From: Candidatus Abyssobacteria bacterium SURF_5
GTDB taxonomy: Bacteria; Abyssobacteria; SURF-5
Direction: 5' to 3'
Length of the DNA: 64,000 bases
NCBI GenBank assembly: GCA_003598085.1
Contig: QZKU01000068.1
Location: 1-64,000, forward strand
The notes under the pieces were generated by a model. The model was not told where the DNA came from. It saw only the letters and a list, made by a program, of their open reading frames with translations, and did no database searches. Below are positions 32,595-46,591 of the stretch, piece after piece. Each line of letters starts with the position of its first letter. The stretch's first letter is position 1. Both the position numbers and the translations under genes were made by a program.

Positions 32595-33833
32595 TTAACC
32601 CACCAGTGTAGAAAGCTTGAAAATCGGCAGGAACAGGGCAAGCACCATGCCGCCCACAACGACACCAAGAAACAGAATGAGCATCGGTTCAATCATGGAC
32701 GTCAAGCTGGCGATTGCAGCCTCCACCTGCTGGTCATAGAATTCAGATATCTTCGAGAGTAATTCGTCAAGAGCACCCGTCTTTTCGCCGACATCTATCA
32801 TCCTCGTGACCATGAGCGGGAAAACGCCGCTCTTTGCAAGCGGATCGGCTATCGTGGCGCCGGCGCTGATGCTGCTCTGAGATTCCCGGACCGCCCGCGA
32901 GATCACGTCGTTCCCGATCGTTCGCTCCACGATCTCGAGGGCCGCCAGCACCGGGACACCGCTCCTCGTCAGCGTGGACATCGTTCGAGCGAATCGGGAG
33001 ACTGCAACCTTCCTGAACAGCGATCCGAAAACCGGCAATCGGAGCTTGAACGAGTCGAATTGGTAGCGGCCGGTTGTCGTGGAAATATAATATCGCAAAC
33101 CGACGATTAATGCAAAGCCCAATCCCAGAAATACGAGAGCGTAGCTGCGCATCGCGTTGCTTATCGCAATAAGCACTAAGGTCGGCATTGGCAACTGTCC
33201 GCCGAGACTGTCGAAAATCTCCTTGAACTTCGGAACAATGAAGATCAAGAGGCCGGCGGCGATAGCGACGACGATAACCAGAGCGATGACGGGATATGTC
33301 ATTGCCGATTTTATCTCCCGCTTCAACTTTTCCGTCGCCTCCAGATACTCGGCGAGCTGTACCAGGATGCCGTCCAGATTTCCGCTTGCTTCACCGGCGC
33401 GCACCATGCTTGAATACAGTTCGGGGAAAGCCCGCGGATGCTTCTTCAGGGCGTCGGAAAAAGTCAACCCTGCCTCGATGTCCTGCCCGACCTGCGTCAG
33501 GACTTTCTTGAAATTCTGGCTTTCGGTCTGCTCGATCATGATGTCGATACCCTGAAGGAGCGGCAGCCCCGCATTCACCATGGTTGCGAGTGACCGCGTG
33601 AAGAGAACCATTTCGTCCGGTTTTACCTTCTTTCCCTTCACCGCGGCGCCTGCCGCCGCAACCGCCTTGCGCGATGCCGTGCGTGCTGCGGCAGGACCGC
33701 CCTCGTTTACAGAAGTGGGGACCAAACCCTTGCCCCGCAACTTCTGCAGGAGATCCTGTTTGTTATCGGCATCCAAAACGCCGTTCAGCACGTTGCCCGC
33801 TTTGTCACGGGCGGTGTATTGAAAAGTTGACAT
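32595..33833 (-). CDS. pilC: type IV pilus inner-membrane platform protein PilC
   Basis: 412 residues: N-terminal Ala/Lys-rich segment (MSTFQYTARDKAGN), two GspF domains (about 70-190 and 275-400; DEMVLFTRSLATMVNAGLPL and SRFARTMSTLTRSGVPVL are the paired starts) and three membrane helices. It anchors the PilB/PilT motors. GGGAGGG is the ribosome site. It lies downstream of pilR and is followed by the glycosylation genes with only an 18-nt gap. Confidence 0.94.
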   Translation of the reverse strand: MSTFQYTARDKAGNVLNGVLDADNKQDLLQKLRGKGLVPTSVNEGGPAAARTASRKAVAAAGAAVKGKKVKPDEMVLFTRSLATMVNAGLPLLQGIDIMIEQTESQNFKKVLTQVGQDIEAGLTFSDALKKHPRAFPELYSSMVRAGEASGNLDGILVQLAEYLEATEKLKREIKSAMTYPVIALVIVVAIAAGLLIFIVPKFKEIFDSLGGQLPMPTLVLIAISNAMRSYALVFLGLGFALIVGLRYYISTTTGRYQFDSFKLRLPVFGSLFRKVAVSRFARTMSTLTRSGVPVLAALEIVERTIGNDVISRAVRESQSSISAGATIADPLAKSGVFPLMVTRMIDVGEKTGALDELLSKISEFYDQQVEAAIASLTSMIEPMLILFLGVVVGGMVLALFLPIFKLSTLVG

Positions 33834-33867: not shown

Positions 33868-35253
33868 TCAGTTCTCCCTGGCCTTCATGTTGAATTTTTC
33901 CAGTTTATATCTCAGCGACCGCGGCGAAAGCCTGAGCAAACCGGCAGCGCGCGTCTGTGAGTTTGATGCCTTGCGGAGCGCCTGCTTGATCAATGAGCGC
34001 TCAAACGCCTCCACCCTGGTCGTTAGGTCGATTCCCTCCGGCGGAAATTCGGCCACCTGAGGCTCCTCTTCTCCGGAACAGCAAACCTTTACCGGAAGAT
34101 CGTCCGGCTCGATCCTGTTACCATCGCATAAGGCGGCGGCCCTTTCTATCACATTCTCAAGTTCTCTGACATTTCCGGGCCAATGATACTTCTCAAGTAT
34201 CCGTTCGGCTTCATTGGAAAGTTGCAACATCTTTCCCGATCGCCTGAAGAAGCTGTCGAGAAAATACCGGGCCAGCAGCAGAATGTCTTCACGCCGTTCG
34301 CGCAGCAGCGGCACATAGATCGGGATCACATTGAGGCGATAGTAGAAATCCTCGCGGAAATTGCCCTCGGCCACCAGTTTTTCGAGATCCTTGTTGGTGG
34401 CGGATATGAGACGGACATCAACGGAAAAGTCAACCGAACTGCCTACCGGCCGGATCTTCATCTCGTCAAGCACCCGCAGCAGCTTCACCTGCAGAGCCAT
34501 GCTCGTTTCGCCGATTTCATCGAGGAATAGAGTTCCGCCGTTGGCGACCTTGAAAAGGCCGTCTTTGTGGGATATGGCGCCGGTAAACGCACCCTTGACG
34601 TGGCCGAACAGCTCGCTCTCCAGCAGGCTCTCCGGGATGCCCCCGCAATTGATCGCCACAAATGGCCTTTCGTCTCTTGGACTGCAGTGGTGAATGGCTT
34701 TTGCCACCAATTCTTTTCCCGTCCCGCTTTCTCCAAGGATTAAGACAGTGCTCGATAATCCTGCAACTTTGCGGATCAGGTTCTTCATGTTGATCATGCC
34801 GGGGCTGTTTCCAACCAGGTCATCGAGCCGAGAATGTTTTTTCAACTCTGACTTGAGGATCGAGTTTTCTGCCCGCAGATGTTTGCTCTCCAGCGCCTTT
34901 TCGACGACCATGCGAAGCTCATCATTTTTGAACGGCTTAATCAGGTAATCATAGGCCCCCAGTTTCATCGCTTCGACCGCAGAATCGACCGAACTATGGG
35001 CGGTAATCACGATTGATGAAATAAACCCGTTCGCCTGCTGGGCTTCCTGGAGAACCTTGATGCCTCCCTGCCGGTCTTCATGAAGCCACAGGTCGGTAAT
35101 CACCAGATCCCACGGCCCCTTCCGAAGTTTGGCGGCGGCCTCGTCATAACTCTCCACGCCTTCTACCTTGTATCCGTGACGCTCCAACATGATCGCGAGC
35201 AACTCCCGCATGCTCGCCTCGTCTTCAACGATAAGAATTCGGGCCTTTTCCAT
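33868..35253 (-). CDS. pilR: sigma-54 response regulator PilR
   Basis: 461 residues: receiver (1-120, ILIVEDEASM, phospho-Asp in LVITDLWLHEDRQ), AAA+ domain with Walker A GESGTGKE and an intact GAFTGA loop (ELFGHVKGAFTGA), and a FIS-type HTH (about 420-460, SQTRAAGLLRLSPRSLRY). It activates sigma-54 promoters, very likely those at 22951 (pilA) and 38090 (pilT). It starts 6 nt after pilS. Confidence 0.93.
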   Translation of the reverse strand: MEKARILIVEDEASMRELLAIMLERHGYKVEGVESYDEAAAKLRKGPWDLVITDLWLHEDRQGGIKVLQEAQQANGFISSIVITAHSSVDSAVEAMKLGAYDYLIKPFKNDELRMVVEKALESKHLRAENSILKSELKKHSRLDDLVGNSPGMINMKNLIRKVAGLSSTVLILGESGTGKELVAKAIHHCSPRDERPFVAINCGGIPESLLESELFGHVKGAFTGAISHKDGLFKVANGGTLFLDEIGETSMALQVKLLRVLDEMKIRPVGSSVDFSVDVRLISATNKDLEKLVAEGNFREDFYYRLNVIPIYVPLLRERREDILLLARYFLDSFFRRSGKMLQLSNEAERILEKYHWPGNVRELENVIERAAALCDGNRIEPDDLPVKVCCSGEEEPQVAEFPPEGIDLTTRVEAFERSLIKQALRKASNSQTRAAGLLRLSPRSLRYKLEKFNMKAREN

Positions 35254-35259
35254 TTTTTT

Positions 35260-36879
35260 TCATCCTATCCGGGGCAAAATGATCTTGATGCGCGTCCCCT
35301 CGCCCACCCTGCTGTCTACATCAATGGAACCTTTATGGGAAGTTATAATTTTGTGAACGATTGCAAGTCCCAAACCGGTTCCCCTTGGCTTCGTGGTGAA
35401 GAAGGGATCGAAAACTCTGCGTAATTCTTCGGGTGAGATACCGGTGCCCTCGTCCTCTATCGTAATGCGCACCTCCGCTCCTGAACCGGCAGCATCGATT
35501 CGGAGACATCCTCCGGCAGGCATCGCTTCTCTCCCGTTTCGAACCACATTCAGCAACGCTTCCTGCATTTGAGCCCGGTTACCCTTGATTTCGCCAAGAG
35601 CCGGCGGAATAGTGGCATAGATTTGACCATCGCCGTTGAAGAAATTCCTTTGTGCGATTTCCACTACTTCATCTAACAAGGTGTTGATATTGAAATAGCC
35701 GTCCTCATGAATCCGGCCGCTGACGAATTCAAGGAAATCGGATACGATTTTTCCCAGTTGGTCGCATTCCCGGACGACGATCGAAAATAATTGCCTATTC
35801 GAATCTTCAAGTTTCAGATTCTCTGAAAGCTCTTGTACCGCGCCGCGGATGGAAGCGACAGGATTCCTTATTTCATGAGCAAGACCGGCCGATGTCTCCC
35901 CGATCGCCGCCAATCGGTCCGCCCGCCGCAGCCTGTCCTCCATCTGCTTGAGCTCTGTCAGATCGATAAAACTGCCGACCGCTCCCAGAAGCTTTTGGGT
36001 GCTGCTCTTTATTGGAGAGACGGTTACGCCGACAGGGATCGTTTTCCCATCGCCCCGCATAACCGCAATTTCCCGGCTGTTGGATTCCTTTTGTTTCGCT
36101 ATGGCTTCAACAAGCGGATTCGGGACGTCGATTACGGGAAAGATGGTGGATACGTTCTTGCCGACCGCATCCATCCGCTCCCATTTCAGTAAACGCGAGC
36201 CCGCCGGATTCAGATACGTCACCATTTGGTCCCGGTTGATGCTGAGATATCCGCTGGACAGGCTATTGAGAATGCTCTCATGAAACGACTGCAGCAAGCC
36301 GACCCGGTGAGACAGCAACCCGCCCAAAAACGCGGTCAGGTAAAACGCGAAAATTTTCATCCCGGTATCGGCCCAGCGGTGTAAGCCGGACATATTCATC
36401 GCTTTCACCTGGAAGGGGGAGGCCGGTAATACATATCCATGCAATTCCAGCACCATTACAGCCAGGAAAAGAAGGGAACAAATGGTAGCGACGAAAGCGC
36501 TCCAATTGAGCGAAAGCAACAGGCTTGCCGAAAGGATCACGGCCACATTCAGAAAGACGAAGACGCTTGCACTCCCGCCGGTCATCAGCGTGATGGCGCT
36601 GATCAAGACCAGGTCGGCGCACAGAAGGAACAGGGACATCCGCATCGTCGGCGCATAGCCGGCGGCGATAATGCCCGCGACCAGAAAAGATTCGATAAGT
36701 GCAACCGCGAGTATGGCGAACAGGTACGCGGTGCTCAGATCGGTACGGGCACCCGTGCTCACCTGCAAAAACCCGCAGTAGACGGCGACAATCGTTACGA
36801 TAAAAGCCCGCGCCAGCGCAAATCTTTTCAGGATGAGACTGCTCTGCTCCAAATCGGTTTTGAAAGGGTCGATCATCAA
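35260..36879 (-). CDS. pilS: sensor histidine kinase PilS
   Basis: 539 residues: six predicted membrane helices (about 20-190), a PAS domain (about 195-310), HisKA with AHEIRNPVAS (His335) and a HATPase domain (N box VVRNGREAM, G box GTGISPEE, PRGTGLGLAIV). PilS senses pilin in the inner membrane and controls PilR. No clear ribosome site precedes the ATG at 36879, 11 nt after pilT, so translation is probably coupled. Confidence 0.92.
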   Translation of the reverse strand: MMIDPFKTDLEQSSLILKRFALARAFIVTIVAVYCGFLQVSTGARTDLSTAYLFAILAVALIESFLVAGIIAAGYAPTMRMSLFLLCADLVLISAITLMTGGSASVFVFLNVAVILSASLLLSLNWSAFVATICSLLFLAVMVLELHGYVLPASPFQVKAMNMSGLHRWADTGMKIFAFYLTAFLGGLLSHRVGLLQSFHESILNSLSSGYLSINRDQMVTYLNPAGSRLLKWERMDAVGKNVSTIFPVIDVPNPLVEAIAKQKESNSREIAVMRGDGKTIPVGVTVSPIKSSTQKLLGAVGSFIDLTELKQMEDRLRRADRLAAIGETSAGLAHEIRNPVASIRGAVQELSENLKLEDSNRQLFSIVVRECDQLGKIVSDFLEFVSGRIHEDGYFNINTLLDEVVEIAQRNFFNGDGQIYATIPPALGEIKGNRAQMQEALLNVVRNGREAMPAGGCLRIDAAGSGAEVRITIEDEGTGISPEELRRVFDPFFTTKPRGTGLGLAIVHKIITSHKGSIDVDSRVGEGTRIKIILPRIG

Positions 36880-36890
36880 AATTTTCAGGG

Positions 36891-37955
36891 TCAGAATCCC
36901 TTCCCCATCAGCCTCAACAGGTCTTCCTGGTTCGAACTGGCTTCAAGCGCCTGTTCGTACGAGAGCTGGCCGTTCTTGTAGAGTTTATAGAGGGATTGAT
37001 TCATGGTCTGCATTCCCAGGCCGCCTCCCGTGCTGATCGAAGAATAAATCTGGTGCAGTTTTTCTTCCCTGATCAGGCTCCGGATCGCGGTGGTTGCGAC
37101 CATGATCTCCATCGCAAGGACTCTGCCGTTTCCATCCTTGCGCGGAAGAAGTTTTTGCACGATGATCCCTTCCAGAACGAAGGAAAGCTGCGTGCGTACC
37201 TGAACTTGCTGGTGCGGAGGAAACACGTCGACCATTCGGTTGATTGACTGGGTCGCATCATTCGAATGGAGCGTGGCAAAAACGAGATGACCCGTCTCGG
37301 CCACCGTCAGCGCCGCTTCAATCGTTTCCAGGTCGCGCATTTCTCCAATCATGATGACATCCGGGTCCTGTCGCAGAATGTGCTTCAAAGCGGCCGCGAA
37401 TGAGTGCGTATCCGCGTATACTTCACGCTGATTGATGATGCTCATCTTGTGCGAATGCAAATATTCAATGGGATCCTCGATGGTCAGGATATGGCAACGC
37501 TGCTCGAGGTTGATCTTGTTGAGCAGAGCGGCCAGAGTCGTGCTCTTCCCGCTGCCGGTCGGACCGCAAACCAGCACCAGCCCCAGCGGCCGGTCCGCGA
37601 GATCTCGAACGCTTTTGGGAATCCCTAATTCCTCGAAACCCGGAACCTCGTACGGGATTGTCCGGATGGCGGCAGTGACGGAGCCGCGGTCAATAAACAA
37701 ATTGACGCGGAACCGGCTCAATCCTTTGATCCCGAACGACATATCCAGTTCCTTTTCTTTCTCGAACTCCTTTATCTGGCGCTCAGTGAGAATGCTGTAT
37801 GAGAGACTCTTCGTTATTTCCGGAGTAAGTGGCGGCAAGTCCATCGGGTAGAGTTCGCCGTCGATTCGAAGCTGTGGGGGAACTCCAACAACGAGATGAA
37901 GGTCGGAGGCATTATGTTCGATTAAATGCCGGCACAAGTCTTCCAATTGCAGCAT
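36891..37955 (-). CDS. pilT: pilus retraction ATPase PilT
   Basis: 354 residues of usual PilT length. N-terminal PAS-like domain (DLCRHLIEHNASDLHLV), Walker A GPTGSGKSTT, Asp box, Walker B MIGEMRDLETIE, His box, and the C-terminal AIRxLIRE motif (AIRSLIREEKLHQI) essential for retraction. It has its own sigma-54 promoter in the 207-nt gap after pilB. Confidence 0.95.
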   Translation of the reverse strand: MLQLEDLCRHLIEHNASDLHLVVGVPPQLRIDGELYPMDLPPLTPEITKSLSYSILTERQIKEFEKEKELDMSFGIKGLSRFRVNLFIDRGSVTAAIRTIPYEVPGFEELGIPKSVRDLADRPLGLVLVCGPTGSGKSTTLAALLNKINLEQRCHILTIEDPIEYLHSHKMSIINQREVYADTHSFAAALKHILRQDPDVIMIGEMRDLETIEAALTVAETGHLVFATLHSNDATQSINRMVDVFPPHQQVQVRTQLSFVLEGIIVQKLLPRKDGNGRVLAMEIMVATTAIRSLIREEKLHQIYSSISTGGGLGMQTMNQSLYKLYKNGQLSYEQALEASSNQEDLLRLMGKGF

Positions 37956-39897: not shown

Positions 39898-41304
39898 CTA
39901 TGCTTCCACCGGGCGGAACAGGTGCTTCAGGATTTCCTGTGCAAGTTCCACTGAGATTTCATGACCCACGAGCGAAGAGTACGCAAGTAGCTTCTTGAGC
40001 GCCCCCTCGAGTTCCCGAATATTAGAGGGAATAGACTTCGCAAGCAGTTCCAGGACTTCCTCCGGCACCGCCACTCCGGCTGACTCGCTGCGTTGCTGGA
40101 GAATGGTGAGCCGGGTCTGAAAATCGGGCTCTTCCATGCATGCGACTACGCCTCCCTCGAAGCGCGAGATGAGGCGCGATTCCAGCCCCTTGAGCTTCTT
40201 GGGGGGAACGTCGCTGATCAGAATAATCTGCCTTTTCCTGTTATAGATGGCGTTGAAAATATTGAAAAATTCCTCCTGCGCTTTCGTTCGAGCGGAGAGA
40301 AACTGCACGTCGTCCACGATGAGGATATCGAGATTGCTGAACGTCTCGCGGAATTCCTTCATTCGTTCCTGTTCGATTGCCTCTAGCAATTCGTCGATGA
40401 ATTGGCTCGTGGGAATGTAGAAAAGCGAGAGGCTGTTATCACGCCGTATTGCCTCATTTCCGATGGCATTCGAAAGATGCGTCTTGCCCAGCCCGCTGTT
40501 CCCGTAAATGAAAAGCGGGTTGTATTCCGCTCCCGGCGCTTCGGATACCGACTTCGCGAGAGCATAGGTGAAAGAGTTTGCCTCCGCCACCACAAAATTC
40601 TGGAAAATAAACCGCTCCACCAACCCGCGCCTGCACGGAGTCTTGGATTCCGCCGCCCCCTTTTTCTCCTCTGCCGGTTCCTCCTGCGGCTCGCGCCGAG
40701 TGCTTTTGTCTCGAGCGGCGGAGGCGGTGTCCTTTTTAGGCTCTTCGTCGTCCTCGTCCGCCTCTTCCTCCTCCCCCATCTCATCGTGCACCTGCTGATC
40801 CTTGTTCACCTCGGCCCCATAGATGCGCGCGTACAACTCGGAATAATCGGCCCATGAGCACAAGATGGGCTTTATTCGCAACTTCACCTGTTCTTTCACC
40901 GCATCGAGAGCCTCGGTGTCGAGCGGGTTGACCATCGCAACCGTGAGAAGGCTTCCCAATTTGTCGATCGGCAGCAACTTGTAGGTATGGCAGATCTCTG
41001 CCGGAATGAGTTCGGCCGCCTCGGTCCGAACCTGCAGATTAGAGAGCTTGAGGTGCGGAATGCGGCAATGGCGAACGAGGCAACCGATTAATTCCTCTTC
41101 CGTGACGTACCTGAGATCCAGCAAAATCTCACCCAGAAAATGATCTGCCGAGTTCTTCTGACGAATCGCCTCTTCGAGTTCCTGCCGCGTGATCATTTCC
41201 TCGCGAATCAATAATTCGGCAAGCTTTTTATTGGCGTCTTTCAGATGCTTTTTTTTCGGCGGTGCGCCCGGTTTAGCGGCCGGTTTATTTGATGATTTTT
41301 TCAA
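39898..41304 (-). CDS. MshEN domain fused to DnaA-like AAA+ ATPase
   Basis: 468 residues with an unusual architecture. Residues 20-165 form a GspE/MshEN domain like that of PilB (ELLIREEMITRQELEEAI, FLGEILLDLRYVTEEEL). An acidic/charged linker covers 170-225. Residues 227-465 are a DnaA/Hda-type AAA+ domain: Walker A GNSGLGKT (268-275), Walker B DILIVDDVQFL, sensor 1 ILISDVPP, Arg finger SRF (Arg381) and sensor 2 NIRELEGAL (Arg430), all intact. The C-terminal DnaA DNA-binding domain is missing. The start is TTG at 41304 after AAGGGAAACGG. First gene of the pil block, 19 nt before pilB. It is therefore unlikely to be the replication initiator; a pilus- or c-di-GMP-linked ATPase is inferred. 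Confidence 0.85.
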   Translation of the reverse strand: MKKSSNKPAAKPGAPPKKKHLKDANKKLAELLIREEMITRQELEEAIRQKNSADHFLGEILLDLRYVTEEELIGCLVRHCRIPHLKLSNLQVRTEAAELIPAEICHTYKLLPIDKLGSLLTVAMVNPLDTEALDAVKEQVKLRIKPILCSWADYSELYARIYGAEVNKDQQVHDEMGEEEEADEDDEEPKKDTASAARDKSTRREPQEEPAEEKKGAAESKTPCRRGLVERFIFQNFVVAEANSFTYALAKSVSEAPGAEYNPLFIYGNSGLGKTHLSNAIGNEAIRRDNSLSLFYIPTSQFIDELLEAIEQERMKEFRETFSNLDILIVDDVQFLSARTKAQEEFFNIFNAIYNRKRQIILISDVPPKKLKGLESRLISRFEGGVVACMEEPDFQTRLTILQQRSESAGVAVPEEVLELLAKSIPSNIRELEGALKKLLAYSSLVGHEISVELAQEILKHLFRPVEA

Positions 41305-41438: not shown

Positions 41439-43439
41439 ATGAGAAATTCCTTTGCCAAAGTCGTTCCATCGCGACTGATGGTCGTCGGTTTAGGCACGAC
41501 TTTGGTTGTTTTGTGCCTGGCTGCAATCCTCATGCTGCTGCCCGGACTCATCGGCCGCGAACGCCTCGCCGACAGGCTCGTGGAGGGACTGCAATCCATG
41601 AGCACCTTGGAGGGCGATTTCCCGCTGGATAATCTGGACAGAATCTTATACTCCATCTATCAGTCCAACAAGGCGAACCGTAATTTGTCGTACCTGCGCT
41701 TTGTCGATGTGGGCGACGGTTCCATTTTTACATATGACGATAAAGGTGTCCGAAAACCGGCGGGACGCGTGCAACCTGAAGTCTGGGCCGATCTCATCAA
41801 TAAAGGCAAAGCAGCCAATATTGAGAGCGGCCAGCTTGATATATTCAGATTGGTTTCTCCAGAGCATTCCATTGGTATAAATTTGGGAATCGGCCCCGAT
41901 GTCGCCCAGGAGATCGAGTCCCAGCGCCGCCTTTCCCTCGTAGTGGGAAGCATAATCCTTGCCACAGGGATAGGAATCCTCATCATGATCTGGCAGACCA
42001 GGCAAATAGAGGCGGCAAAAGGTGAACTTGAGCTCGTATTGGCAAACACCCTGGAACCCATCCTGATGGTGGACAATTCTTGCCGCCTCGTGTTCGCGAA
42101 CGAACCCGCGCGAACGCTGTTAGGGCACCCAAAGGGAAAGAAATTCCGCAATCGCCCCCTGCTCTCCCTGATACAAAACGCCGAGAACCGAGAATTTTTC
42201 TCCAGGATGCTTTCAGGGGAAGATAAAGATACAGATATGGACGAGCTAATTACAAATTTTCCCGGTTTCCCTGATAAAGTTACGTTTCGGGCGGGCATGT
42301 TAAATGTTCGAACGGAAGTGGGACGCACCCTCGGAAAACTGCTCGTACTGCGGGATGTGACCCTGGAGAAACGGCTTGAGGACAAGAAGGTCTCTCAAAC
42401 GATTCATGAATTGAAAGGGATGCTGGGGGAAATCAAGGGATATATCCGCCAGGTTCTGGAAACAATGGACGGCGATGCCGATCGAAAACAACGAGCTTTC
42501 CTCAACATCTGCCTCGAAAAGATCGAACGGTGCTACAGTACGGTGGCAACGATGGTCAAATCCATCGTGAGCGCGTTTAAACCGCAGTCGCTGGAGCTGA
42601 GGTTACGCCATTGCGATCTGGTCGACTTGATCCAAACAAATGTCAACGACATTCGCTCTTCTGTGGAAAAGGAAAAAGGGCGCGGGCCGAAAGTGACGCT
42701 GTCAACATCCGACAAGCTCCCCATGGTGTGCTGCGATTCGAATGCCATTTCGAGGGTTCTCATGAATCTTCTGCTGAACGCTGTGCAACATTGCCCCAAT
42801 GGCACCGTAAATGTGTGTGTGGAGGATAAGGGCGAGGTGTTGCAGGTGCTGGTGAAAGACGAAGGCAGCGGAATTCAAAAAGAGGATCTCGAGCGAATTT
42901 TTGAGCCTCATGTCAGCTTCAGGAAAGGCGGCTCGGGCATGGGCCTCTCGATCTGCCGGGATTTCATCAGGGCTCACGGCGGAGAAATTTGGGCCGATTC
43001 CCGAGGCAAAGACAAAGGAAGCACGTTCAGCTTCTTTATACCAAAGTCAAAGCCCGCCGTTTTATCGTCAGACCGCCAGTTCGCGCACAAACTCGAATCC
43101 GCTTGCTGGCGTAAAGGGTATTATCCCGTCATTCTGGAGGATTTTCTCGCGGCCACGCGCAGAATCATTGAGTTAAACCCGAATGCCATCCTCCTGGACC
43201 TCGACATGGAGGATACGATTTCCGGCATGTCGCTGGCCTACCGATTGAGAAAGACCGGCGACACCGCCAAAATTCCCATTATCGCGTTTTCGGCAAACAT
43301 CCCGGAGGCACGATTAGAATTGAGCAGATATGAAGAGCTATCGCTCGAATCGATCTTACCTCGTGACTTCAAGGAAGAAGAGCTCGATTCTGCAGTCGGC
43401 ACTATCGAAGCTTTCTGGTACCTTGCACAGACTTTGTAA
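41439..43439 (+). CDS. hybrid sensor histidine kinase with C-terminal receiver-like domain
   Basis: 666 residues: two membrane helices (about 14-36 and 167-186) flanking a 130-residue extracytoplasmic sensor, a PAS domain (about 195-310), dimerisation/phosphoacceptor helix with HELKGMLGEI (His323; the usual HExxNP is altered), HATPase (NLLLNAVQH, DEGSGI, GGSGMGLSIC) and a receiver-like domain (about 548-660). The receiver keeps the phospho-Asp region ILLDLDMED, but the conserved Lys is Arg (LPRDF), so it may be a poor phosphoacceptor. It is followed after 47 nt by the NtrC-type gene, its likely partner. Confidence 0.85.
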   Translation: MRNSFAKVVPSRLMVVGLGTTLVVLCLAAILMLLPGLIGRERLADRLVEGLQSMSTLEGDFPLDNLDRILYSIYQSNKANRNLSYLRFVDVGDGSIFTYDDKGVRKPAGRVQPEVWADLINKGKAANIESGQLDIFRLVSPEHSIGINLGIGPDVAQEIESQRRLSLVVGSIILATGIGILIMIWQTRQIEAAKGELELVLANTLEPILMVDNSCRLVFANEPARTLLGHPKGKKFRNRPLLSLIQNAENREFFSRMLSGEDKDTDMDELITNFPGFPDKVTFRAGMLNVRTEVGRTLGKLLVLRDVTLEKRLEDKKVSQTIHELKGMLGEIKGYIRQVLETMDGDADRKQRAFLNICLEKIERCYSTVATMVKSIVSAFKPQSLELRLRHCDLVDLIQTNVNDIRSSVEKEKGRGPKVTLSTSDKLPMVCCDSNAISRVLMNLLLNAVQHCPNGTVNVCVEDKGEVLQVLVKDEGSGIQKEDLERIFEPHVSFRKGGSGMGLSICRDFIRAHGGEIWADSRGKDKGSTFSFFIPKSKPAVLSSDRQFAHKLESACWRKGYYPVILEDFLAATRRIIELNPNAILLDLDMEDTISGMSLAYRLRKTGDTAKIPIIAFSANIPEARLELSRYEELSLESILPRDFKEEELDSAVGTIEAFWYLAQTL

Positions 43440-43486
43440 TCCACCGGCTGGCGGTTACGAGATGCCCCACCCAGGGAGAGAGTGAC

Positions 43487-44848
43487 GTGGCGGCAAAAGG
43501 AAATAGAATTCTCATAATCGATGACGAGCCCGATACCGTTCAGAAGATAGTGAATTATCTGAAGAACGAGGATTTTGATGTTACCGTGGCATACGACCGG
43601 CTCGAGGCGACTCGGTTGCTCCGGAAGATGCTGTACGACATCGTTTTCCTGGACTGGGTGTTGGAGAGAGAGATCGGACTCGAAGTCTTGAACGCGCTCC
43701 GCCAGGAGTTCCCGGGACTCGACATCGTGGTCCTGAGCGAGGCCGCCTCCCTCGAAATGGCGGTGCAAGCGGTGAGCCACGGCGCCTATGACATCGTGAA
43801 AAAGGCGCACGAAGATGGCAGCAATGAATGGAAGGTCCCCCCTCGCCTTCCCATCGTCCTGCATAATCTGCTGGCGCGTCGCCAGGAGCGTGAGCTTGTC
43901 AATCAGCAAATGGACGAACAATTCCGCATGATCGGCGAAAGCAACGCCATGCAGAGACTCCGCGAGGAAATCCGCCTCGTCGGTCCCAGCGATTACACTG
44001 TTCTCATCTGCGGAGAAAGCGGAACGGGCAAAGAACTGGTGGCCCGAAATATTTACCGGAACAGCTCCCGCCGCGACGCTCCTTTCGTCCCGGTAAACTG
44101 CAGCGCCCTGACCTCGACTTTGCTGGAATCGGAACTGTTTGGAATCGAAAAACGCGTGGCCACCCAGGTCGATCAGCGAAAGGGTAAGTTCGAGCTCGCG
44201 CATGGAGGCACTCTTTTTCTGGATGAGATCGGCGACCTCAGCTATGAGGCACAGGCAAAGCTTCTGCGCGTTTTAGAAGACAAGACGATAACCCGCGTCG
44301 GCGGCCAAAAAGAAATCAAAGTCGATGTTCGTATCCTTGCAGCAACAAACCGCGACATGGACGCCATGATCGCCGCCGGCAACTTTCGAGAGGACCTGCG
44401 ATACCGCCTCTCCTACCGGATCAACTCCCCCCCACTGCGGGAACACAAAGAGGATATCCAACCCATAGCGGAGTACCTGCTGGAGCAAGCCTGCCGGGAA
44501 CTGCACAAAAAACTTCTCACCATCGACGAAAAAGCTGTGGAACTTCTGAAAAACCATTCATGGCCGGGTAACGTGCGCCAGTTGAAAAACGTCCTGCAGT
44601 GGGCGGCAGTGCGGGTTGAGGATGTCATCACCGCCGACCTGCTCCAAAGAAACGAAGATTTGCAGTCAGCCCCCGCTGCAATGCCGAATTATGCGAGAAT
44701 GACTCTGAAGGAGGCGCAACGGGCATTTGAACGCGACCTGATACTGAAGGTGTTGAATGAAAGTTCGTCCAATCGGGAGGCGGCCCAGAAACTGGGGCTG
44801 GATGAAGGCAATTTCTCCAAAAAATTGAAGGACCTCAATCTCAGGTGA
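43487..44848 (+). CDS. NtrC-type response regulator lacking the GAFTGA loop
   Basis: 453 residues starting at GTG after GGGAGAG. Receiver 1-125 (IIDDEPD, phospho-Asp56 in VFLDWVLE), AAA+ 145-375 with Walker A GESGTGKE (176-183) and Walker B GGTLFLDEIGD, FIS-type HTH 410-453 (SNREAAQKLGLDEGNFSKKL). Where sigma-54 activators read ELFGHxKGAFTGA, this protein reads ELFGIEKRVATQV (residues 223-228 replace GAFTGA). ATP-binding residues and the Arg finger region (FREDLRYRL) remain. It probably cannot engage sigma-54 in the usual way; it may act on sigma-70 promoters like TyrR or modulate PilR. The pilR gene in this window keeps GAFTGA. Confidence 0.88.
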   Translation: MAAKGNRILIIDDEPDTVQKIVNYLKNEDFDVTVAYDRLEATRLLRKMLYDIVFLDWVLEREIGLEVLNALRQEFPGLDIVVLSEAASLEMAVQAVSHGAYDIVKKAHEDGSNEWKVPPRLPIVLHNLLARRQERELVNQQMDEQFRMIGESNAMQRLREEIRLVGPSDYTVLICGESGTGKELVARNIYRNSSRRDAPFVPVNCSALTSTLLESELFGIEKRVATQVDQRKGKFELAHGGTLFLDEIGDLSYEAQAKLLRVLEDKTITRVGGQKEIKVDVRILAATNRDMDAMIAAGNFREDLRYRLSYRINSPPLREHKEDIQPIAEYLLEQACRELHKKLLTIDEKAVELLKNHSWPGNVRQLKNVLQWAAVRVEDVITADLLQRNEDLQSAPAAMPNYARMTLKEAQRAFERDLILKVLNESSSNREAAQKLGLDEGNFSKKLKDLNLR

Positions 44849-45155
44849 TGCGCACCCCCATTGAAAAGCTCCCTCTTCACCTGAATGAGAAATTCGGAGC
44901 CCAATTGTCCCGATCACAAGCTTCTTGTTGAAAGCACAATCGCGCTGCCTATTTTCAAGTAGAAACGCTTCTTTTCTTCCTTTCCTAAAGCCATGCTGTC
45001 CCCGATCTTTTTTCCGTCGTAATTGCTTGATTTGATTAATGTTATGAGTTAGGCATTTCGCCGCCGAAAGGCGCTTCCAGCCAATTTTATCCTTGAGGTC
45101 TTTTTGGCATACTCCTTGCCCAATCTATAAGTGCCTTACAAATAAGGGGGAAGAA
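44849..45155. other. 307-nt intergenic with sigma-54 promoter
   Basis: No gene is visible. It contains the sigma-54 promoter at 45104-45120. A small palindromic stretch ACAAGCTTCTTGT near 44917-44929 might be a weak 3' stem of the upstream gene. The middle part is AT-richer than its surroundings and could hold activator sites. Confidence 0.5.
45104..45120 (+). promoter_or_regulatory. sigma-54 promoter of the receiver-kinase pair
   Basis: TTGGCATACTCCTTGCC with GG (45106-45107) and GC (45118-45119) exactly 10 nt apart. The start near 45131 lies about 25 nt before the ATG at 45156. It shares the TGGCAT half with the pilT promoter, suggesting a common activator, probably PilR. Confidence 0.7.
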
Positions 45156-45581
45156 ATGACCGGGAAAAAAGCTGTTTCACCAGGATCCGAAGTAAAAAAG
45201 GTGCTTCTGATAGATGACGAGATCGAGAGCCTGAGAGAGATAATCCGATTTTTCGAAAACAACAACTGGAAAGTTTCAACCGCAATCGACGAGAAGGAAG
45301 CGATTTTGGAGTTGGAACGCGTGGATCCGTCTCTGGTTCTTCTCGATCTGGTTTTGGAGAAGGAAAGCGGATTTGAGGTGCTCACGCAGATCAAGAAAAT
45401 GCATCCGGAAACCAGAGTGATAATACTCAGCAAATATTTCGATTATGAACTGGTAAAGCAGGCGATGAAGGCGGGCGCCATCGGTTTCGTGCAAAAGGGG
45501 GAATCAAACAGGTTGCCCTCCGCTTTCAGGAGTTTTCTAAGAGGACAACCACTTGAAAAAAGTCTTCAGCAGAGGCAATAA
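45156..45581 (+). CDS. stand-alone receiver-domain protein
   Basis: 141 residues from ATG 45156 (RBS AAGGGGGAA); an earlier in-frame start at 45093 lies upstream of the sigma-54 promoter and was rejected. A single CheY-like receiver: LLIDDEIES (acid pocket), LVLLDLVLEKESG (phospho-Asp), ILSKY (Ser in place of Thr) and VQKGES (Lys). It resembles the receiver of the NtrC-type protein at 43487 (LDWVLEREIG). There is no output domain, so it works by protein contact, perhaps with the kinase encoded 5 nt downstream. Confidence 0.85.
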   Translation: MTGKKAVSPGSEVKKVLLIDDEIESLREIIRFFENNNWKVSTAIDEKEAILELERVDPSLVLLDLVLEKESGFEVLTQIKKMHPETRVIILSKYFDYELVKQAMKAGAIGFVQKGESNRLPSAFRSFLRGQPLEKSLQQRQ

Positions 45582-45586
45582 ATGAC

Positions 45587-46591
45587 ATGCTAAGAAGTAA
45601 GAACATCGATTTCATGAATGATGATAATTTTGAAGACGCCTATCGGCGCGTCCTCAGGAAACACGGTTATCAATTCTTGCAGATCATCGGGCGGGGCGGA
45701 ATGTCCCGTGTCGACGAAGCGCGTCATCTCGCGACGGGAAAATTGAGGGCCATCAAACATCTCGGTCCGAATCCCCCCATTGAAAAGATCGACCGCTTCA
45801 AAAGGATCCTGCGCCGGGAGACTGAGTACGCCTTTGATCACCCAAACGTGATGAAAGGCCTGGATCTCTTCGAGGAAAACGGCGACATTTTTTACGTTAT
45901 GCCCCGAATGCAGCACAACCTCGAACATCTGTTGCTTGATGATGAGAAGTACAGCCTCGCGTTCCTCATGGACATAATCATTCAGGTTGTGGCCGGATTG
46001 AACTATCTCCATCAGAACCACATTATTCATCGCGACCTGAAGCCGTCCAACATCCTGTACGACGCGAACGGCAGCAACTCGATGTCGATCGTTATCTGTG
46101 ACTTTGGATTGAGCCAGGACAAGGCCGCCAAACTGAAAACCGACCTGTCGCGCTTTTTCGGGAGAGGACGCCGCGCCGGCACAATGAACTATGCGGCCCC
46201 CGAACAGTTGCGCAAGGGCGGAAGATACGACAAACGGTGCGACATATACGCGCTCGGCCGCCTCTTGGACGAGTTAATCGCAAAGAAAATGAATGGCGCA
46301 AGCAAATTCATCAATACCTTCCAGCAGGACCGCCAGGTTCATGCGTTGTCCAAGAAGGTATACCTCTACAAGATGGACCGGCCTTATATCCTCGACGCGA
46401 GCAGTCGCAACCAATTGCCCTACTCGCTCAGCAGCCTCATCCTGAGATGCTTGCAGAAGAATCCGGATCGCAGACCTGCGGATGTCGTTCAAATTTTCTA
46501 TGAGTTGACAAAAATCCAACAGGAAGTCCGTTCCGCGGCGGGAACCGAATTTTTGCAGAGGGAAGTGATGACGTACCGCCCGCGCCAGTAA
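45587..46591 (+). CDS. cytosolic Hanks-type Ser/Thr protein kinase
   Basis: 334 residues without membrane helix or sensor domain. Complete kinase motifs: IGRGGMSRV (P-loop), AIKHL (Lys), HRDLKPSNIL (catalytic loop), CDFGLS (Mg binding) and YAAPEQ (P+1). An insertion of about 40 residues lies after the APE motif (HALSKKVYLYKMDRPYIL). The pairing with a lone receiver behind a sigma-54 promoter suggests cross-talk between two-component and Ser/Thr phosphorylation, possibly governing pilus function. Start ATG 45587; MNDDNF at 45614 is an alternative. Confidence 0.88.
   Translation: MLRSKNIDFMNDDNFEDAYRRVLRKHGYQFLQIIGRGGMSRVDEARHLATGKLRAIKHLGPNPPIEKIDRFKRILRRETEYAFDHPNVMKGLDLFEENGDIFYVMPRMQHNLEHLLLDDEKYSLAFLMDIIIQVVAGLNYLHQNHIIHRDLKPSNILYDANGSNSMSIVICDFGLSQDKAAKLKTDLSRFFGRGRRAGTMNYAAPEQLRKGGRYDKRCDIYALGRLLDELIAKKMNGASKFINTFQQDRQVHALSKKVYLYKMDRPYILDASSRNQLPYSLSSLILRCLQKNPDRRPADVVQIFYELTKIQQEVRSAAGTEFLQREVMTYRPRQ

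Follow-up and report, generated by a model that had tools for sequence, protein, structure and literature searches.

The pil operon in the window opens with a gene that fuses an MshEN domain to a DnaA-type AAA+ module. The window is the whole stretch of DNA that was analysed, 64,000 nt of a contig from Candidatus Abyssobacteria bacterium SURF_5. The fusion gene is a single uninterrupted open reading frame of 468 codons with a TTG start; its features and its neighbours are listed in Table 1. A 134-nt gap separates it from a divergent histidine kinase gene and is probably the site of the operon promoter. The divergent cluster (41439-46591, + strand) comprises this histidine kinase, a sigma-54 activator, a receiver protein and a Ser/Thr kinase, and part of it also adjoins the fusion gene in the two nearest genomes, G001 and G002 (loci L117 and L118).

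Table 1. Features of the fusion gene and of the surrounding pil locus, with their positions in the window
Feature	Position	Strand	Remarks
MshEN-linker-DnaA-type AAA+ fusion gene, 468 aa, first of pil operon	39898..41304	-	Conserved in relatives
MshEN domain, residues ~19-172	40789..41250	-	Pfam MshEN, NCBIfam c-di-GMP motif, Foldseek match 5htl
MshEN motif I, residues 27-50, KLAELLIREEMITRQELEEAIRQK	41155..41226	-	R to K, G to A, Q to K against consensus
MshEN motif II, residues 56-79, FLGEILLDLRYVTEEELIGCLVRH	41068..41139	-	R to F, G kept, Q to H against consensus
Acidic low-confidence linker, residues 173-225	40630..40788	-	AlphaFold pLDDT <50 at 175-220
DnaA domain III-type AAA+ module and lid, residues 226-465	39910..40629	-	Stops at III/IV boundary
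Walker A GNSGLGKTH, residues 268-276	40477..40503	-	
Walker B ILIVDD, residues 327-332	40309..40326	-	
Arginine finger R381 (SRF motif)	40162..40164	-	Invariant in 57/57 Hydrogenedentota/Abyssobacteria fusions
Sensor-2 arginine R430	40015..40017	-	Invariant in 57/57 fusions
pilB, extension ATPase, 571 aa	38163..39878	-	Start 19 nt downstream of fusion
pilT, retraction ATPase	36891..37955	-	T2SSE, no MshEN; gene order conserved
pilS, sensor kinase with PilS-like transmembrane domain	35260..36879	-	
pilR, sigma-54 activator	33868..35253	-	
pilC, T2SSF platform protein	32595..33833	-	
Divergent histidine kinase	41439..43439	+	

Both halves of the protein are recognised by Pfam. MshEN is matched at residues 81-165 (E 1.2e-15; 57.6 bits against a cut-off of 23.1) and Bac_DnaA at residues 229-387 (E 2.9e-55). 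MshEN domains bind c-di-GMP in pilus and secretion ATPases, and the established role of DnaA-type ATPase cores is in replication. The N-domain aligns with that of the adjoining PilB (26% identity, E 1.4e-15) and has the same fold as the N-terminal MshEN (GSPII) domains of MshE/PilB proteins, such as V. cholerae MshE (5htl) and T. thermophilus PilF. The output, however, is a T2SSE motor in MshE/PilB and a DnaA-type AAA+ module in the fusion, where Pfam finds no T2SSE motor domain. DnaA domain I is absent, and there is no Pfam match to Bac_DnaA_C (domain IV), the reading frame ending at the III/IV boundary. A sequence-only reading of the locus had described an MshEN domain fused to a AAA+ ATPase at the head of the pil operon, with an N-domain like that of PilB, and with the ATPase motifs of DnaA but no DNA-binding domain. 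The intact frame, the two Pfam domains, the intact motifs and the recurrence of the arrangement in relatives agree with this description.

The AAA+ half is DnaA-like in both sequence and predicted structure. An AlphaFold model of the fusion, built from a 32-row alignment, has a mean pLDDT of 85.8, with confident halves at residues ~25-172 and 226-465 and a disordered linker at 175-220. In this predicted model, the N half matches MshE 5htl (Foldseek TM-score 0.75 by target length) and the AAA+ half matches the DnaA domain III structures 8btg, 8bv3 and 2z4r. Superposed on domain III of B. subtilis, T. maritima and A. aeolicus DnaA, the AAA+ half gives an rmsd of 1.3-1.8 Å and Z of 28-32 (42% identity, 1.5 Å and Z 32 for B. 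subtilis). Identity to the domain III structures (8btg/8bv3, 2z4r and 3r8f) is 37-43%, and the fusion shares with them the residues of the ATPase site and of the arginine finger, along with the initiator-type helices.

Hda is a DnaA-like regulator without DNA binding, and the AAA+ part had initially been classed as DnaA/Hda-type. The Hda half of that label does not hold. The fusion scores 320.9 bits with the DnaA model TIGR00362, under the cut-off of 343.9, and 93 bits with the Hda model TIGR03420, below the cut-off of 194.8. Its match to the Hda fold is also poorer (21% identity, 4.3 Å, Z 20.7). Profile and fold thus rule out an Hda-like identity; the sole likeness to Hda is a DnaA-related AAA+ module that lacks domain IV, the DNA-binding domain.

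The fusions keep the ATPase motifs of DnaA, and their DNA-contact positions have changed. Across 57 fusions, there is little or no variation in Walker A GKT/S-H, Walker B DD, the arginine finger and the sensor-2 Arg; sensor 1 is variable in the Hydrogenedentota fusions. We take T191, V156 and R190 of Aquifex DnaA to be ssDNA contacts, after the 3r8f work. The T191 position is Ala in 56 of 57 fusions and Thr or Ser in 49 of 56 DnaAs. The V156 position (V211 in E. coli) is Ile or Val in all 56 DnaAs and Ala, Thr, Glu, Ser or Gly in most Hydrogenedentota fusions; in the Abyssobacteria fusions it is Leu or Ile, a conservative change. An E. coli DnaA V211A mutant cannot bind ssDNA (PMC12122000). 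The R190 position is little informative because it is variable even among DnaAs. The changed contacts, the two missing domains and the linkage to pilB all distinguish the fusion from DnaA.

The fusion is widespread in two groups of bacteria. It is present in all three sampled genomes of the Ca. Abyssobacteria family, and ~55 of the 68 Hydrogenedentota genomes searched have a fusion-type match (a table count that includes some matches close to the end of a contig). A domain-wide search of 386 sampled genomes found colinear fusions only in G198, G335 and the three Abyssobacteria; it scored only the best candidates against a strict threshold and may have overlooked fusions that are rarer or more diverged. 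Further MshEN-AAA+ proteins are encoded by G218 and G356, and longer DnaA-like reading frames in other genomes proved on checking to have no MshEN.

Linkage to pilB is a constant of the fusion loci in these two groups. Of the 57 Hydrogenedentota and Abyssobacteria loci that include an AAA+ half, 53 have pilB as the next gene downstream in the same orientation, at a distance of -83 to +214 nt (median 48 nt), normally with pilT next. The other four comprise two loci at contig or stretch ends (L255 and L262), one whose pilB is truncated where the stretch ends (L218) and one with a broken pilB frame (L194). Six loci of the set (L057, L246, L256, L257, L259 and L263) hold only the AAA+ half or an MshEN stub because the contig starts inside the gene. 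Where the fusion is present with enough intact flank, pilB always adjoins it in Hydrogenedentota and Abyssobacteria. Both the domain order and the pilB link, which the sequence-only reading had singled out for a search, therefore recur. The fusions of G198 and G335 do not lie beside pil genes.

The same arrangement in 57 loci, the window's included, excludes a chance join and an assembly or frameshift artefact. In the relatives examined, no sequencing error accounts for the join, and the two halves, which might have turned out to be separate proteins, occur together except in G082. There, the neighbour of pilB consists of MshEN and a linker with no detectable AAA+. In G074 and G075, pilB-pilT has no adjoining fusion, and PilB has not regained the motif glycines there (its motif II begins SLP). 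These three genomes indicate that PilB can do without the fusion. The fusion is a real, conserved, T4P-linked protein with a DnaA-type ATPase core. A search of the literature outside subscription papers returned no report of an MshEN-DnaA fusion, and the protein is apparently undescribed so far.

By sequence, the AAA+ modules of the Hydrogenedentota and Abyssobacteria fusions group separately from the sampled true DnaAs. Supported branches lie between the two in a 108-row quick tree, and in a reduced quick tree of 70 rows a branch with a support of 98 sets off both groups of fusions together, 17 in all (supports are SH-aLRT only). Both trees rule out a recent copy of the host's own DnaA. The fusions of G198 and G335 are placed among the DnaAs, which makes more than one origin of MshEN-DnaA fusions probable. 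Only dN could be used to compare the three Abyssobacteria copies, since dS was saturated in nearly all pairs. It is 0.14-0.19 for the AAA+ half, near that of DnaA (0.18-0.20), and 0.18-0.29 for the MshEN half.

The glycines of the c-di-GMP site are mostly retained together in the fusions and never in the adjacent PilBs. The MshEN consensus for c-di-GMP is two RLG...Q motifs (PMC5013675), and we took two such motifs with a 5-residue spacer as the mark of a receptor. Both motif glycines are retained in 46 of 53 fusions and in none of 52 adjacent PilBs; they are also retained in 20 of 27 PilBs from fusion-less genomes and in 6 of 7 other PilB-like ATPases of Abyssobacteria. The fusions depart from the MshE/PilB consensus at the Arg position of motif II, where 52 of 53 copies have an aromatic residue (Phe or Tyr). 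In adjacent PilBs, Ser or Asn is usual at this position, as is Ala, Pro, Gln or Val in place of the Gly, a pattern like that of the natural non-binder PilF GSPII-A, where Ser (S39) replaces Arg and Ala (A41) replaces Gly (PMC12002112). The PilB of the window has PLV in place of RLG. In PilF, changing Arg to Ser abolished binding, and for GSPII-A to regain it required the Ser/Ala reversion together with other changes (PMC12002112).

In the window's own fusion copy, the site has decayed further. Its motifs read KLA...K and FLG...H, with one key glycine and both terminal glutamines lost, and it scores 40-42 bits with the NCBIfam c-di-GMP model (cut-off 38). This model is passed by the fusion and by the PilB of the same operon: fusions score 40-65 bits and adjacent PilBs 43-62 bits, both above the cut-off. 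Profile scores therefore failed to divide the two proteins cleanly by c-di-GMP binding, and the case for a shift of the site depends on single columns. The decay in PilB may also go back to one ancestral event or a few, and the 52 PilBs therefore cannot be treated as independent. GGDEF proteins occur in all eight genomes tested. From these motifs, it is plausible that the fusion family senses c-di-GMP. The c-di-GMP response that had been proposed for this protein thus agrees with a motif fairly well kept family-wide, but not with the decayed copy in the window or with the Phe/Tyr that replaces the motif II Arg.

We consider it rather probable that the fusion is a dedicated T4P cofactor whose DnaA-type ATPase core would no longer serve replication. 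The presence of the same gene directly before pilB in dozens of genomes from two groups suggests that a DnaA relative became part of the pilus machine, and the conserved linkage favours the earlier proposal of a AAA+ protein with a part in pilus assembly. Docking or sensing at the pilus base, where PilB works, is the most likely role of the MshEN half. The AAA+ half would bind ATP and, by means of its arginine finger, form a ring or an open helix that does not engage DNA; this assembly would scaffold or gate PilB/PilT. Domain order, linkage, ATPase motifs, changed DNA-contact residues and the relative state of the MshEN sites are the observations behind this reading; from them we infer oligomer formation, PilB contact, ligand binding and the direction of regulation.

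Across the family, the signal is likely to be c-di-GMP, and the PilB N-domain seems to have passed the sensing site on to the neighbouring fusion. We offer this hand-over as a tentative hypothesis within the cofactor reading, less likely than not. In the species of the window, the fusion may act only as an ATP-dependent scaffold, because even its own sensing site has decayed there. A bolder and slightly more doubtful extension is that the fusion is a third T4P ATPase, of the DnaA lineage, which would assemble with ATP at the pilus base and would have taken over second-messenger sensing from PilB, leaving motor and sensor as separate proteins across whole groups of bacteria. A conserved DnaA relative with changed DNA contacts beside pilB in two groups would be an example of the recruitment of this module into a membrane machine. 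A directly testable question follows as well: how pili are regulated in bacteria whose PilB c-di-GMP site has decayed.

It is also conceivable, if unlikely, that the fusion acts as an ATP-dependent scaffold with no second-messenger input, with MshEN as a docking module and the long variable linkers as tethers. The decayed motifs of the window copy, linker lengths of 31-781 aa and the fusion of the same AAA+ module elsewhere to coiled coils, TPR arrays and a probable transmembrane end are consistent with this, and MshEN domains are able to lose c-di-GMP binding (PMC12002112). However, the glycines and the aromatic first position of motif II, kept in most fusions, suggest selection on a ligand site.

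We judge it improbable that the fusion co-assembles with DnaA through its AAA+ half, in the manner of Hda, and so links the initiation of replication to the state of the pilus or the level of c-di-GMP. The DnaA domain III fold and the retained arginine finger and sensor 2 make hetero-oligomers conceivable, and no separate Hda-like match was found in the window's genome. The gene, however, lies beside pilB and never beside dnaA in the loci seen, and the host's own DnaA is on another contig. The fusions form a separate clade with altered DNA-contact positions, the match to Hda is much weaker than that to DnaA, and a simple pattern scan found clamp-binding-like motifs in just 5 of 86 reading frames and in none of the three Abyssobacteria fusions. 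The coupling to DnaA or replication that the sequence-only reading had entertained is thus not supported, given the diverged AAA+ module, changed ssDNA contacts, missing domain IV, pilB linkage and poor Hda match. Less probable still is a protein-remodelling ATPase whose AAA+ ring unfolds or recycles PilB/PilT complexes: complete ATPase motifs in a motor operon would suit it, but protein threading is not known from the DnaA clade and the sequence holds no pointer to it.

Other proteins with DnaA-type AAA+ modules were encountered. TPR-AAA+ proteins, coiled-coil giants and TM-AAA+ proteins share the module with the fusion and likewise lack domain IV; they have no MshEN (G218/G356 excepted) and no pilB linkage was seen for them. 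Several of them are nearer to DnaA in the trees than the fusion is. The window's genome encodes a giant of this kind (L113:5512-10752 on G000:C145; orthologues at L120 and L121; 1703-1830 aa), with DnaA-type AAA+ towards both ends, a long coiled coil between and motifs partly decayed. Further giants with C-terminal DnaA-type AAA+ lie at L266:3458-9856, L336:4728-10097 and L267, with a TPR array in L266; by eye only, the N-termini of L266 and L336 resemble a DnaG-type CHC2 zinc finger, as candidates. Proteins at L036:5974-7866 and L042:3015-5021 have an N-terminal DnaA-type AAA+ and a hydrophobic, probably membrane-spanning C-terminal end.

G218 and G356 represent a third lineage with MshEN-AAA+ genes, beside a prepilin peptidase, which also speaks for the T4P cofactor reading. 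At these loci (L321:2623-8555, L265, L322 and L264), a prepilin-like reading frame (by eye) and the peptidase gene precede four tandem genes of 983, 436, 409-423 and 1993 aa, with MshEN in all four and DnaA-type AAA+ in three. G001 and G002 encode a DnaA paralogue without domain I and with domain IV (L116:8686-9744 and L119:5476-6549), just downstream of two PilB-like ATPase genes; no equivalent was found in the window's genome. L323-L327 and L332 encode DnaA-type AAA+ proteins of ~560-720 aa with no MshEN and no detected domain IV. L323-L327 all have a similar 80-aa N-terminal segment; in L332 the contig begins inside the gene.
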